Below are positions 1,729 through 58,582 of a stretch of 64,000 nt of DNA, piece by piece. Position 1 is the stretch's first letter. The number at the start of each line of letters is the position of its first letter. The position numbers and the translations under genes were made by a program. Below the pieces are notes generated by a model that saw only the letters and a program-made list of their open reading frames with translations, searched no databases and was not told the DNA's origin. Source of the stretch: Mesorhizobium sp. (lineage in GTDB: Bacteria; Pseudomonadota; Alphaproteobacteria; Rhizobiales; Rhizobiaceae); assembly GCF_017306545.1 (NCBI RefSeq), contig NZ_JAFKID010000007.1, positions 62,001-126,000 of the forward strand. Reading direction: 5' to 3'.

Positions 1729-2299
1729 CGCCGAACCATCGTACCGCGGCAGCCATGCCGGCAGCGCATTCCTGCGCCGGTTCGTTCTTGCCGGCGCCGC
1801 CGCTTCGGCATTGCTTGCCGCCGGCTGCACGGTGCGGCCGCTCTATTCCGACGCGCCGCTCGGCAATTCGACCGTCAGCGCCAAGGCGGAACTGGCCTCG
1901 ATCGCGGTCAAGCCGGTGAACTCGCGCTATGCCCAGCAGGTGCGCAACAACCTGATCTTCGGCCTTTACGGCGGCGCGCAGGCGCCGGCCGCACCAGCCT
2001 ATTCTCTCACGCTGGACGTCACCGAACTGATCCAGTCCGCGGCCGTGGTGCAGGTGACGACCGATACCGACCAGCCGACCGCCGGCACGGTGACGTTGAC
2101 GTCCGCCTATACGCTGACCGACGTGAAAACCGGCAAGCCGGTGGCCACCGGCAAGCGCTCGATCTCGTCGTCCTACGACAAGCCGTCGCAGGAATTCGCC
2201 GGCTACCGGGCGCAGATCGACGCCGAGAACCGCTCCGCGCGCGAACTGGCCGAATTGCTGCGGCTGGCGCTGGCGCAGGACCTGTCCAAGCCGCGCTGA
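1715..2299 (+). CDS. lptE: LPS assembly lipoprotein LptE
   Basis: 194-residue outer-membrane lipoprotein expected to plug the LptD barrel that inserts lipopolysaccharide in the outer leaflet. A hydrophobic signal segment (about residues 22-37) ends in the lipobox LAAGC with the acylated Cys at residue 38, followed by TVRPLYSD, a typical LptE start. The first 20 residues before the signal peptide are unusually long and polar, so the true start could be later, but no better in-frame ATG is present. It overlaps the leuS stop by 14 bases. In E. coli and many alphaproteobacteria holA follows lptE; here a convergent transaldolase gene follows instead. Confidence 0.85.
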
Positions 2300-54916: not shown

Positions 54917-56050
54917 GTGGACGGGTTTTTCGAACAACCGGGCGAAACGCGCGGACCGGGCCTCGCGGCGGCCGGCGCGACGCTGACGATCGATCTCGGC
55001 GCGGTGCGCGAGAATTATCGGCGGCTGAAAGCGCGGCTCGGCGGCGCGCGTTGCGCCGGCGTCGTCAAGGCCGACGGCTATGGCCTCGGCGCGGCCGTCA
55101 TCGCGAGCGCCTTGCGGAAGGAAGGCTGCGACAGTTTCTTCGTCGCCCATGTCGGCGAGGGGCTGGATCTGCGCGAGGCATTGGGGCCGGGACCGGCCAT
55201 CTACGTGTTGAACGGCTTGCCGCCGGGCGCCGAGGCGGATGCGGTCGCCGCCGGGCTGATCGCCGTCGCCAACAGTGCCGAACAACTTTCGGCCTGGCGT
55301 GCGACGGCGCGGCGGCTCGGGCGGAAACTGCCGGTCGCCGTGCAGGTGGACAGCGGCATGGCGCGGCTCGGCATGGCGCCGGCCGAGGTCGAGACTGTCG
55401 CGGCCGATCCCGATGCGCTTGCCGGTCTCGACCTTACGCTGGTGATGAGCCATCTTGCCTGCGCCGACGAACCGGACCATGCGGCCAACCGCGTCCAGCT
55501 CGCCGAATTCGAGCGACTGCGCCGGCTGCTGCCCGCAGCCCCGGCATCGCTGGCCAATTCCTCCGGCATATTCCTCGGGTCTGAATGGCATTTCGACCTC
55601 GCCCGGCCGGGGGCTGCGCTCTACGGCATCAACCCGACGCCCGATTCCGACAATCCGATGCGGCCGGTGGTGCGGCTGGAAGCCAAGGTCATTCAGACAC
55701 GCACGATCGGCGAAGGTGCGGGCATCGGCTACGGCCATACGGCGATTGCCGACGGTCCGCTTCGCGTGGCGACGATTTCGCTCGGCTATGCCGACGGCTG
55801 GCGCCGCCGCGCCGCCGCCTTCGCCCATTTCAACGACGTGCGCCTGCCCTTCATCGGCCGCGTGTCGATGGATTCGATCATCCTCGACGTGTCCGACCTG
55901 CCCGAAGGCAGCCTGAAGGCCGGCGACATGGTCGAGATGATCGGGCCGTCGCAGACTCTGGACGAGGTCGCCCGCTATTCCGGCACCATCGCCTACGAGG
56001 TGCTGACCAGCCTCGGCCGTCGCTTCAACCGCCGCTATATCGGCGGCTGA
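54917..56050 (+). CDS. alr: Alanine racemase
   Basis: 377-residue PLP enzyme interconverting L- and D-alanine. The PLP lysine is Lys51 in GVVKADGYGLGA; the second catalytic Tyr is in GAGIGYGHTA (about 274). Other motifs: VQVDSGMARLGMAP and RVSMDSIILDVSDLP. GTG start preceded by GGGAG. The dadA gene downstream on the same strand suggests a catabolic (DadX-like) role besides D-alanine supply for peptidoglycan. Two rnk-like genes and a regulatory leader lie between. Confidence 0.95.
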   Translation: MDGFFEQPGETRGPGLAAAGATLTIDLGAVRENYRRLKARLGGARCAGVVKADGYGLGAAVIASALRKEGCDSFFVAHVGEGLDLREALGPGPAIYVLNGLPPGAEADAVAAGLIAVANSAEQLSAWRATARRLGRKLPVAVQVDSGMARLGMAPAEVETVAADPDALAGLDLTLVMSHLACADEPDHAANRVQLAEFERLRRLLPAAPASLANSSGIFLGSEWHFDLARPGAALYGINPTPDSDNPMRPVVRLEAKVIQTRTIGEGAGIGYGHTAIADGPLRVATISLGYADGWRRRAAAFAHFNDVRLPFIGRVSMDSIILDVSDLPEGSLKAGDMVEMIGPSQTLDEVARYSGTIAYEVLTSLGRRFNRRYIGG

Positions 56051-56066
56051 GGAAAAGGCGCCGGGC

Positions 56067-56103
56067 TGTCAAACTTGACAAACGGCCTCCCGTCACCCAC
56101 GTT
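56067..56103 (+). promoter_or_regulatory. Candidate promoter/operator upstream of the leader ORF
   Basis: TGTCAA (56067-56072) and TTGACA (56075-56080) form a 6-2-6 inverted repeat; TTGACA is also a consensus -35. A -10 at 17 bases (CACGTT, 56098-56103) is poor. If used, transcription would begin at or very near the ATG at 56110, giving a leaderless message. Confidence 0.35.
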
Positions 56104-56109
56104 CGGACC

Positions 56110-56166
56110 ATGAACAGACACGCCAACAGAACCTTTTTCAGGATCTGCCCCATCGCGGGAGCGTAG
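56110..56166 (+). CDS. Putative 18-residue leader peptide
   Basis: Short frame coding MNRHANRTFFRICPIAGA, too small for ordinary gene finding. All three Arg codons are AGA or AGG, rare in this GC-rich genome where CGC dominates, and two Phe codons adjoin one of them. The TAG stop (56164-56166) shares its last base with the left arm of a strong terminator-like hairpin. This layout suggests an attenuation leader for the rnk-like genes starting at 56327, but it could also be a chance frame in front of the alr terminator. No clear ribosome site is present. Confidence 0.45.
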   Translation: MNRHANRTFFRICPIAGA

Positions 56167-56215
56167 CCCCGGCGCGGCCGTGCGCGGCTGCGTGAACCGG
56201 GGCATTTCTTCTTTT
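56166..56215 (+). terminator. Terminator/attenuator hairpin downstream of the leader ORF
   Basis: GCCCCGG (56166-56172) pairs with CCGGGGC (56197-56203); inside, CGCGGCCG (56173-56180) pairs with CGGCTGCG (56185-56192) with one G-T wobble, around loop TGCG, leaving a TGAA bulge. The tail is ATTTCTTCTTTT. It ends about 110 bases before the rnk-like gene. Confidence 0.75.
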
Positions 56216-56326
56216 CACCCATGACCAACCGGTCCGCATGAGCGGATCGAGTTCGATGTCGCAAGCCGACCGGCCGGTGGGCAATGCGTCATTTTTCCCA
56301 CGTCACAACGAAACAAGGAGTTCGAC

Positions 56327-56743
56327 ATGCAACATGCCATCAAGGAACGCCCGCCGCCGAAGATCGTCGTCAGCGAAGCCGACTACAACCGCTTGACCGG
56401 CCTGGCTGAAGCGGCGCTGGAGCGCCTGCCCGATGCCGCCGGCAGCCTGCTTGCGGGAATGGACCGCGCCGTCATCACGAAGCCCGGCAAGCTGCCGGCC
56501 GACGTGGTGCGGATGGGCTCGCTGGTGACGCTGGAAGGCCATGAAGGGCCGCAGCGCATCGTGCTCGTCTATCCGGCCGAGGCCGACATCGCCGCCGGGC
56601 GCATCTCCGTGCTGACGCCGCTGGGCGCCGCACTGATCGGCACGCGGGCCGGACAGGCGATCGCCTGGTCGACGCGCGACGGCCGCCGGCTGGCGGCAAA
56701 GGTTGCCGCCGTCGAGATGCTGGCCGACGAGCGCGTGCCATGA
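56327..56743 (+). CDS. rnk: Rnk-like regulator of nucleoside diphosphate kinase (GreA/GreB C-domain)
   Basis: 138-residue protein: a short N-terminal coiled part (PPPKIVVSEADYNRLTGLAE) then the GreA/GreB C-terminal-like fold (VRMGSLVTLEGHEGPQRIVL, AGRISVLTPLGAALIGTRAG, GRRLAAKVAAVEM). Rnk proteins bind RNA polymerase and influence nucleotide metabolism. Strong ribosome site AAGGAG 6 bases before the ATG. Its stop overlaps the start of a second similar gene (ATGA at 56740). Confidence 0.85.
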   Translation: MQHAIKERPPPKIVVSEADYNRLTGLAEAALERLPDAAGSLLAGMDRAVITKPGKLPADVVRMGSLVTLEGHEGPQRIVLVYPAEADIAAGRISVLTPLGAALIGTRAGQAIAWSTRDGRRLAAKVAAVEMLADERVP

Positions 56744-57306
56744 GCACGGCCGGCTGCTGCCTCACCGCCAAGGATTATTCCATTCTCGAGGTGATGCTGG
56801 AGCGGCGGCGCGGCTTCGGCGATCCGATCGTGCCGCTGCTGGAGCGCAAGCTTGCCGAGGCGCGCGTGGTGCTGGTGGACAGCGTCGATGCCGACGTCGC
56901 CACGCTCAACAGCCGCGTGCTGTTCCGCGTCGGCGGCCAGCCGGCCGAGACGCGCACGCTCATCCAGCAGGACGTGCGCGGCATGGTCGGCCTCGGCCTG
57001 CCGCTGACGACGCCGCTCGGCCTTGCCCTGCTCGGCCTAGCCGAAGGCGAGGGTGCGGCGTTCGAGCGGCGCGGCGGCGGAACGGACACGGTCGTGCTCG
57101 ACAGGGTGCTCTATCAGCCGGAGGCTGCGCGGCAGGCAAAGCAGGTGCCGGAGAGGACACCTATGGAGGCGCCGGAACGCCGGCGCCCGGCGCTTGTTCT
57201 GGTCCACAGCGCGGGTGACGATTGGCAACCCCATACTGCCCCCCTTGGCGGCCATGGCAAAATCCTGCACAGAGGGGGCGACGATGACGGCCCGTCGGCC
57301 GCCTGA
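56740..57306 (+). CDS. Second GreA/GreB C-domain (Rnk-like) protein with C-terminal tail
   Basis: 188-residue protein. Residues 8-125 resemble the preceding Rnk-like protein: [40 protein letters not shown] and [21 protein letters not shown] tail of about 60 residues (from PEAARQAKQ) is polar and low in complexity, and has no recognisable domain; the last part may be poorly conserved. Overlap with rnk suggests coupled translation and perhaps a heteromeric pair. Confidence 0.7.
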
Positions 57307-57328
57307 CGGGGTTCCTAGGGGTAAAAGC

Positions 57329-58582
57329 ATGAAAGTTCTGGTGCTGGGCAGCGGCGTCATCGGCGTCACGTCCGCGTGGTATCTGGCCGAGGCCGGCCAT
57401 GAGGTGACGGTGCTCGACCGCCAGCCGGGGCCGGCGCTGGAAACCAGCTTCGCCAATGCCGGCGAGGTGTCGCCCGGCTATTCTTCGCCCTGGGCCGGTC
57501 CCGGCGTGCCGGTCAAGGCGGTGAAGTGGCTTTTGATGAAATACGGCCCGCTCATCATCAAGCCGGCGCTCGACCCGCATATGTGGAGCTGGGTCTTCAA
57601 GATGCTGCGCAACTGCACGGCCGAGCGCTATGCGGTGAACAAGGCACGCATGGTGCCGATCGCCGAATACAGCCGCGATACGCTGAAGGCGCTGAGGGCC
57701 TCTACCAACATCGCCTATGACGACCGCGCCAAAGGCACGTTGCAGCTCTTCCGCAAGCAGGTTCAGCTCGACGGCATCGGCGGCGACATCGAGGTGCTCA
57801 AGGAATACGGCGTTCCCTTCAACGTTCTCGATCAGGACGGCTGCATCGCCGCCGAACCGGGGCTCGCGTCGGTGCGCGAGAAATTCGTCGGCGGGCTGCA
57901 ACTGCCGGGCGACGAGACGGGCGACTGCCAGATGTTCACCACGCGGCTGTCGGAGATCGCGGCGGCGGCCGGCGTCAAGTTCGAGTTCGACGTTACGATA
58001 AAGGCGATCAACACCGATAAGGGGCGCGTCACCGGCGTTTCCACCAGTGCCGGCGAGAAAACGGCGGACGCCTATGTCATGGCCATGGGCAGCTATTCGC
58101 CGATCTGGATGCGCAAGCTCGGCCAGTCGATCCCGGTCTATCCGATCAAGGGCTATTCGATCACCGTGCCAATCGTGAACGCCAAGGCCGCGCCCGAATC
58201 GACGGTGATGGACGAAACCTACAAGATCGCCATCACCCGGCTCGGCGACCGCATTCGCGTCGGCGGCACGGCGGCGATCGCCGGCTACGACCTGTCCTTG
58301 CAGAAGGGGCGGCGCGAGACGCTGGAGCACTCGGTCGGCGATCTGTTCCCCGGCGCCGGCGACCTCGACGCCGCGACCTTCTGGACGGGGCTGCGGCCGA
58401 TGACGCCGGATGGGCCGCCGATCATCGGCGCCTCGAAATATTCCAATCTCTATCTCAACACCGGCCACGGCACGCTGGGCTGGACCATGGCGTGCGGGTC
58501 GGGCCGCGTGCTGGCCGACATCGTCTCCGGCCGCAAGCCGGACATCGACGCCAGCGCGCTGTCTGTCCGCCGCTACAACTGA
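57329..58582 (+). CDS. dadA: D-amino acid dehydrogenase small subunit DadA
   Basis: 417-residue FAD-dependent dehydrogenase oxidising D-alanine to pyruvate and ammonia at the inner face of the membrane. Rossmann FAD motif [20 protein letters not shown] (1-20), [32 protein letters not shown] and the C-terminal [20 protein letters not shown] with [16 protein letters not shown] are diagnostic. The start at 57329 follows TAGGGG. Together with alr upstream it can convert L-alanine to pyruvate. Confidence 0.95.

Follow-up and report, generated by a model that had tools for sequence, protein, structure and literature searches.

What controls the two rnk-like genes that follow alr in this Mesorhizobium locus? 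Between alr and these genes, in the window (the whole stretch of 64,000 nt analysed here), lies a frame of only 18 codons whose stop codon runs into a strong hairpin. An earlier note, made from the letters alone, had proposed that this frame encodes a leader peptide whose translation may set readthrough into rnk, with the plain alternative that the hairpin simply terminates alr. The gene order is alr (54917-56050), the leader ORF, rnk1 (56327-56743), rnk2 (56740-57306) and a D-amino acid dehydrogenase gene (dadA, 57329-58582), and alr ends about 115 nt ahead of the hairpin. Everything that had been noticed (the frame, its AGA/AGG codons, an FF pair, TTGACA within a repeat, the hairpin, its T-rich tail and the overlapping rnk-like genes) is present in the window, where the features are as follows.

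56075..56080, + strand: -35 box TTGACA; TTGA stands at the same distance from the leader ATG in 89 of 183 upstream regions
56098..56103, + strand: -10 element CACGTT (xAxxxT), 17 nt after the -35 box and 6 nt before the ATG; missed by a generic scan
56110..56166, + strand: leader ORF, MNRHANRTFFRICPIAGA and stop; in five of six clade groups pN/pS is 0.21-0.49 in frame; all 67 cores tested share the frame of the ATG
56140..56160, + strand: core R-I-C-P-I-A-G (AGG ATC TGC CCC ATC GCG GGA), constrained in peptide and codons
56166..56203, + strand: stable GC hairpin, -29.3 kcal/mol; family mean z -2.70 at this offset
56204..56216, + strand: T-rich tail after the hairpin; with it, a probable intrinsic terminator in this genome
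56327..56743, + strand: rnk1, nucleoside diphosphate kinase regulator (RNA polymerase-binding Rnk family), NF004396 132.2 bits
56740..57306, + strand: rnk2, distant Rnk-like protein overlapping rnk1 by ATGA, NF004396 54.8 bits

The leader ORF runs from an ATG at 56110 to a TAG at 56164-56166, and its three Arg codons are AGA, AGA and AGG. Thirty nucleotides separate TTGAC from the ATG, and TTGACA sits inside TGTCAAacTTGACA (56067-56080), a perfect inverted repeat with two 6-nt arms that spans the -35 box and which, by eye, differs in the relatives read and is not conserved there. The first base of the 38-nt hairpin is the last base of the stop codon, and ATTTCTTCTTTT follows it; the region 56060-56240 folds with a z-score of -2.11. 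A generic promoter and terminator scan of the window reported no sigma-70 promoter and did not report the leader hairpin as a terminator.

The product of rnk1 exceeds the NCBIfam cut-off of 109 bits for NF004396 and carries Pfam Rnk_N and GreA_GreB; the Rnk family profile matches PDB 3bmb and 2pn0. That of rnk2 falls below the same cut-off (E 8.5e-15), has no Pfam match and shows no significant BLASTP similarity to rnk1. The C-termini of rnk2-type proteins (window 57280-57306; L010, L024, L039, L043) consist of an acidic stretch plus GPSAA or GPTAA, the -AA end of which we take to be reminiscent of a protease degron. The rnk pair between alr and dadA occupies 54917-58582; alr, rnk and dadA also occur together in the same-genus loci L004 and L010, and rnk has other neighbours in L024, L039, L042, L043 and S. 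meliloti L231.

Judged by sequence comparison, the window leader belongs to a family: similar short leader ORFs lie ahead of rnk homologues in many Alphaproteobacteria. When the 721-bp region was compared by BLAST with 41 genomes (its own and 40 relatives), matches to rnk were accompanied by separate strong matches to the leader end and hairpin start, some of them at second loci of the same genome. Short ORFs at these matches end (F/L)FR(V/I)CPIAG(A/S)-stop, so that the ...FFRICPIAGA-type frame with its hairpin, for which a search of relatives had been suggested, was indeed found. A degenerate ungapped pattern for the leader end was detected in 12 of the 297 genomes searched from the order; the reversed control had 0 matches among the rows listed. 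Run over 385 genomes of the class, the sequence-only model R1 placed its best foreign matches, of E 5.6e-10 and 7.1e-8, at two sites immediately ahead of rnk genes; a third match had E 0.0065, and all three sites encode diverged peptides (MCKTVRHFLMYFRVCPIAGI, MSTSRAPIFRIHPIAES and MSFSGPFSRVPRRNHPIAEA, each ending at a stop). The weak matches of R1 numbered 13 (E 2e-4 to 0.01), and among the 6 inspected only L055 precedes rnk.

A blind sample was assembled from 385 genomes by fetching rnk loci by Rnk protein alone; its 41 stretches (L060-L100) were trimmed to 39 loci by removing the window's own locus and one duplicate (L087 = L100). Under loose criteria (TTGA, TTGC or TTGT at -3 to +1 of the 30-nt spacing, ATG, 12-40 aa, no peptide motif required), 31 of the 39 carry a leader as compared to 2 in the reverse-complement control; under strict criteria (TTGA, 30 ± 1 nt to ATG) the figures are 18 and 0. 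Eight of the 39 have no leader for the first rnk gene even loosely (L070, L071, L073, L085, L090, L092, L097 and L099). Across 183 unique rnk upstream regions, a pool biased because it includes loci first found through the leader itself, a strict leader is present in 110 as compared to 4 reverse complements; these leader counts are taken without correction for relatedness. Second genes of tandems make up 35 of the 73 regions that have no strict leader.

Among 80 named loci (L101-L180), 63 have a leader ORF (TTGA/C/T, 30 ± 1, 10-45 aa; a count without a control), and of the 17 that remain, 9 carry a variant that shares the peptide end and has a GTG start or a few nucleotides of extra spacing. 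Named carriers are Bosea, Aminobacter, Reyranella, Xanthobacter, Ensifer, Phyllobacterium, Labrys and species filed under Brucella. Plasmid records with the leader come from Sinorhizobium meliloti pSymB (L231, MPVLAIHFRCSFRVCPIAGT and stop), Rhizobium etli, Sphingobium and a Mesorhizobium plasmid; the plasmid BLAST matched the rnk gene, not the leader, in 15 records listed of 28. By script, the Methylorubrum extorquens and Paracoccus versutus plasmid records gave no leader. Read by eye, L232 (P. versutus pTAV3) has before the rnk at 983 a TCGAC, 30 nt, an ATG, an extended frame into a GC hairpin and a TTTC tail; this may be the same element with its -35 altered.

The broader model R2 gave 61 rows in 53 of the 297 genomes of the order. 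At E<=3.2e-5, 38 of 40 rows were examined and all 38 belong to rnk or, in L211, to rnk2; strand and distance to rnk were checked for L193-L216, and L181-L192, which are sites of degenerate-pattern matches with leaders already listed, were checked only for an rnk in the stretch. Weaker rows comprised 14 that were fetched (L217-L230), of which 8 precede rnk, 1 precedes an rnk2-like gene and 5 precede neither, and 7 further rows outside this set. In L211 (G250:C25), on the reverse strand and about 700 nt after the first leader, an rnk2 that does not overlap rnk1 has a leader of its own (MGVSVRLLNHAGSLIAGI and stop), and a 16-bp hairpin of -39.3 kcal/mol comes right after it.

The leader promoter is sigma-70-like by its -35/17/-10/6/ATG geometry. 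In the 183 regions, the triplet exactly 30 nt downstream of TTGA is ATG in 89, ATC in 10 and one of nine other triplets in 1 or 2 each, and other TTGA-ATG spacings, from -14 to +14, occur 0 to 17 times; in L178 an ATC lies directly before an ATG. The unique leaders first compared all have TTGAC, 30 nt and ATG, and 21 sequences picked by this spacing make up alignment A1; in L008 the -35 lies one nucleotide further off. Positions on which no selection was made are also conserved in 83 unique leaders with TTGA at 30 nt, both around the -35 (C-36 90%, C-31 83%, A-30 75%) and in the -10 region (C-13 89%, A-11 90%, T-7 69%), frequencies again uncorrected for relatedness. Since the -35/17/-10/6 spacing places the predicted transcript start on the A of the AUG, it strongly implies that the mRNA is leaderless.

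The C-terminus is what the peptides share. With no ORF required, the core R-x-x-P-I-(A/T)-(G/E/D) was in frame with the ATG, with no in-frame stop, in 67 of 67 cases, at seven different distances (11-17 codons). The pattern R..P[IVL][AT][GED] is matched by 71 of 102 unique leaders, giving the family one trait of arrest peptides, a conserved C-terminal sequence near the presumed stall site; in 61 of the 71, one residue separates core and stop. In-frame pN/pS in six clade groups, uncorrected for relatedness, is 0.39, 0.21, 0.21, 0.49, 0.29 and 0.83 (n = 12, 4, 7, 12, 9 and 6), the last being Bosea, and shifted frames give 0.70-4.49. By this measure the leader is under in-frame purifying selection in five of six clades. 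Loss of the peptide in relatives, a dN/dS near 1 or frameshifts, which the earlier note had named as evidence against it, were looked for and, Bosea apart, did not appear. The features that had drawn attention to the window fared unequally: the frame, the TTGA spacing and the stop-abutting hairpin are conserved, whereas the rare Arg codons (R3 and R7), the FF pair and the inverted repeat are not.

Other clades have leaders with (R/H)-A-G-x-L-x-A-G ends, some with an in-frame extension into the hairpin. Ordinary leaders have the hairpin start 5 or 6 nt past the G/E/D codon in 50 of 57 cases; in extended leaders (12 with 26 or more residues, three of them without (A/T/S/F)G codons), the CCCC arm lies 5 or 6 nt past the last (A/T/S/F)G codons in 8 of 9 measured. 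Because of this shared core-hairpin geometry we tie the two types together, and regard the extended leaders, with less certainty, as the same element.

The hairpin was evaluated over a fixed 43-nt segment from stop+2, in leaders ending [IVLM][AVT][GED] plus at most one residue. Mean z is -2.70 there, with 68% below -2 (n = 82), and nine other offsets give means of -0.83 to +0.40 (n 70-82). A hairpin is predicted for 101 of the 102 unique leaders, most commonly starting at +2 and +3 (48 together). Single folds reveal many pair types at inner hairpin positions, which suggests compensation. The region upstream of the stop showed neither a conserved hairpin (mean z -0.82 to +0.40) nor a conserved antiterminator. 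An alternative hairpin conserved within the leader, pairing the Arg codon with the Pro codon or GCGGG with CCCC, was considered and rejected: RNAalifold, run on 21 sequences, returned weak pairings, 11 in all, of which 1 showed two-sided changes, and upstream-of-stop z-scores were unremarkable. Taken together, conservation of peptide and RNA far beyond the rhizobia, with the hairpin locked to the stop codon, bears out the idea of a leader peptide before rnk.

We propose that leader and hairpin form a ribosome-gated attenuator, which we name rnkL, and assign this reading a probability of roughly 0.55; the element would probably act as a translation-controlled on/off gate for rnk. Transcription would begin at the first base of the leader start codon, AUG, and ribosomes would translate the resulting leaderless mRNA at once. 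A strong hairpin, which in this genome looks like an intrinsic terminator, could fold directly after the stop codon, and because the two abut, a ribosome at the stop would have to cover its 5' arm. By catching up with RNA polymerase, a ribosome would prevent the hairpin and let rnk be transcribed, and one lingering on the conserved R-x-x-P-I-A-G-x C-terminus would likewise cover the arm; if the ribosome were late, absent or quickly released, the hairpin would form and rnk would stay low. In extended leaders the ribosome would have to melt the hairpin. The conserved C-terminus suggests that the stay of the ribosome at the leader end is programmed. In the E. coli pyrBI attenuator it is the ribosome position itself that blocks the hairpin, with no antiterminator, and the ribosome would block the rnkL hairpin in like manner; unlike pyrBI, rnkL has a shorter ORF, predicted to be leaderless, a conserved C-terminal peptide and a different target.

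The signal sensed may be the lag of the ribosome behind RNA polymerase, or a ligand of the nascent chain. Rnk is reported to bind RNA polymerase (PMC4598747), and we infer that polymerase speed would make sense as a signal given this property of the rnk product. Terminator behaviour reported for E. coli is compatible with such a gate: a terminator several bp downstream of a gene was almost fully repressed, and those lying less than 100 bp into a coding region can work efficiently (PMC4824070), so that by default one located at +57 of a leaderless transcript should work, and it should fail under a close ribosome. Counting against rnkL are poor T-tails in many clades, the codon constraint on the core, the search for a conserved antiterminator, which turned up none, the generic scan that picked up neither promoter nor terminator in the window, the eight blind loci that have no leader and the pN/pS of 0.83 in Bosea.

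The T-tails also bear on a different role for the hairpin. Translation of the leader could control rnk with no intrinsic terminator, the hairpin instead setting mRNA stability, access of Rho or downstream translation. Four or more T in the next 8 nt follow only 27 of 101 hairpins (mean 2.49, expected 1.59) and 22 of the 59 cleanest (mean 2.69, expected 1.63), and with so few good tails canonical intrinsic termination is doubtful in many clades. In single folds read by eye, core codons of the Reyranella-type loci L055, L125 and L176 can also pair near the rnk start codon, which would be a possible second level of control in these loci. Such pairing was not seen in the other loci folded, and good T-rich tails do occur in the window, in several alr-type and extended leaders and in some clades only. 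We consider control by a hairpin of this kind unlikely.

Ribosome gating would act in cis. In S. meliloti the short trpL ORF lies on a leaderless mRNA which also serves as an attenuator (PMC10117765); its products rnTrpL and peTrpL are reported to act in trans (PMC7298713, PMC10117765), and by analogy the main product of rnkL could be a small leaderless RNA and/or a peptide. The predicted layout of rnkL is the same, a short ORF on a leaderless mRNA followed by a hairpin; unlike trpL, rnkL has no Trp codons, an unrelated peptide and an RNA polymerase-binding factor as its target. A trans-acting product has no known target here, and the close association with rnk points to cis control, making this reading improbable.

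Could the ORF be incidental, and the conserved CCNATCGCGGRA and hairpin bind a protein or ligand as RNA? Third positions in the core are indeed constrained: Gly is GGA in 43 of 45, Arg is NGG in 68 of 71 and Ala is GCG or GCA in 62 of 62, as compared to backgrounds of 0.08, 0.30 and 0.40 in 79 downstream rnk genes, with binomial p-values that ignore relatedness. Because codons are constrained as well as residues, peptide and RNA probably both matter, and the codon constraint points to an extra RNA-level role that the gated attenuator does not need. An RNA-only element leaves unexplained why all 67 cores stay in frame with no in-frame stop and why in-frame pN/pS is 0.21-0.49 in five of six groups; synonymous AGG/CGG and GTN also occur within the core, as do ATA and GGC in L045. 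We judge it very improbable.

Classical attenuation sensing the charging of Arg or Cys, towards which the AGA/AGG codons of the window and the Cys that 33 of 71 leaders have as their third core residue might point, can be rejected. The rare Arg codons had been put forward as a possible sensor, a role left unsupported because a single Arg is conserved in the 71 leaders, as CGG (51) or AGG (17). Cys is exchanged for His (16), Ala (6), Gln (5), Tyr (4), Phe (2) and rarer residues, these leaders contain no run of regulatory codons, and the target gene is not biosynthetic. That the hairpin is merely the alr terminator beside a chance ORF, as its place about 115 nt after alr might suggest, fails as the sole explanation because the same ORF and hairpin precede rnk in loci that have no alr, and because the ORF far exceeds its controls (strict, 110 vs 4 in 183 regions and 18 vs 0 in 39 loci), though the hairpin may also stop alr transcripts.

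Attenuators upstream of greA/rnk genes were described by Naville and Gautheret in 2010, whose Figure 6 models cover Pseudomonas, Enterobacteria, bacilli and Yersinia with an RNA antiterminator, and who found no feature common to the greA and rnk leaders (PMC2965389). The element described here is likewise an attenuator candidate upstream of a gene of this family; unlike those leaders, it belongs to Alphaproteobacteria, has an ORF predicted to be leaderless and no antiterminator that we found, and the passage of that paper on these leaders names no leader peptide. RAPP-like arrest peptides (SecM, ApdP and others) are reported to combine conserved C-terminal residues with a variable N-terminus (PMC10987492). 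The rnkL peptides are built in the same way and some contain R-A-G, which in those listed is not followed by P; they differ in having the core R-x-x-P-I-(A/T)-(G/E/D), with no RAPP/RAGP-like motif, in their length of 16-34 residues and in lying upstream of rnk, not sec/yidC.

Rfam 15 has no match at the window leader or in 14 other loci. L039 has a cobalamin riboswitch (130.6 bits) at 1750-1965 (+), on the strand that does not carry its rnk leader. Supplementary tables apart, no description of the element came up in searches of the open-licence literature, nor in passages of PMC3616915, PMC4117421 and PMC4842269 or in PMC5082802; it may well be entered in a sORF or TSS table already published. 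Ribosome-profiling and start-site maps of S. meliloti have been published (PMC10117765, PMC3616915), and the PLSDB tables of four carrier records, which are incomplete, list no gene at the leader.

More tentatively, and with the odds against it, R-x-x-P-I-A-G-x-stop may define a new class of regulatory nascent peptides on leaderless mRNAs, a class-wide sensor of ribosome-RNA polymerase distance (or of a ligand that stalls the ribosome at the stop codon) feeding back on Rnk, itself a binder of that polymerase. A conserved switch of rnk across Alphaproteobacteria, probably gated by translation, would tell when cells want Rnk and would provide a direct handle on Rnk in S. meliloti; rnkL would in addition bring in a widespread family of leader peptides encoded on leaderless mRNAs, marked by an uncharacterised C-terminal signature.
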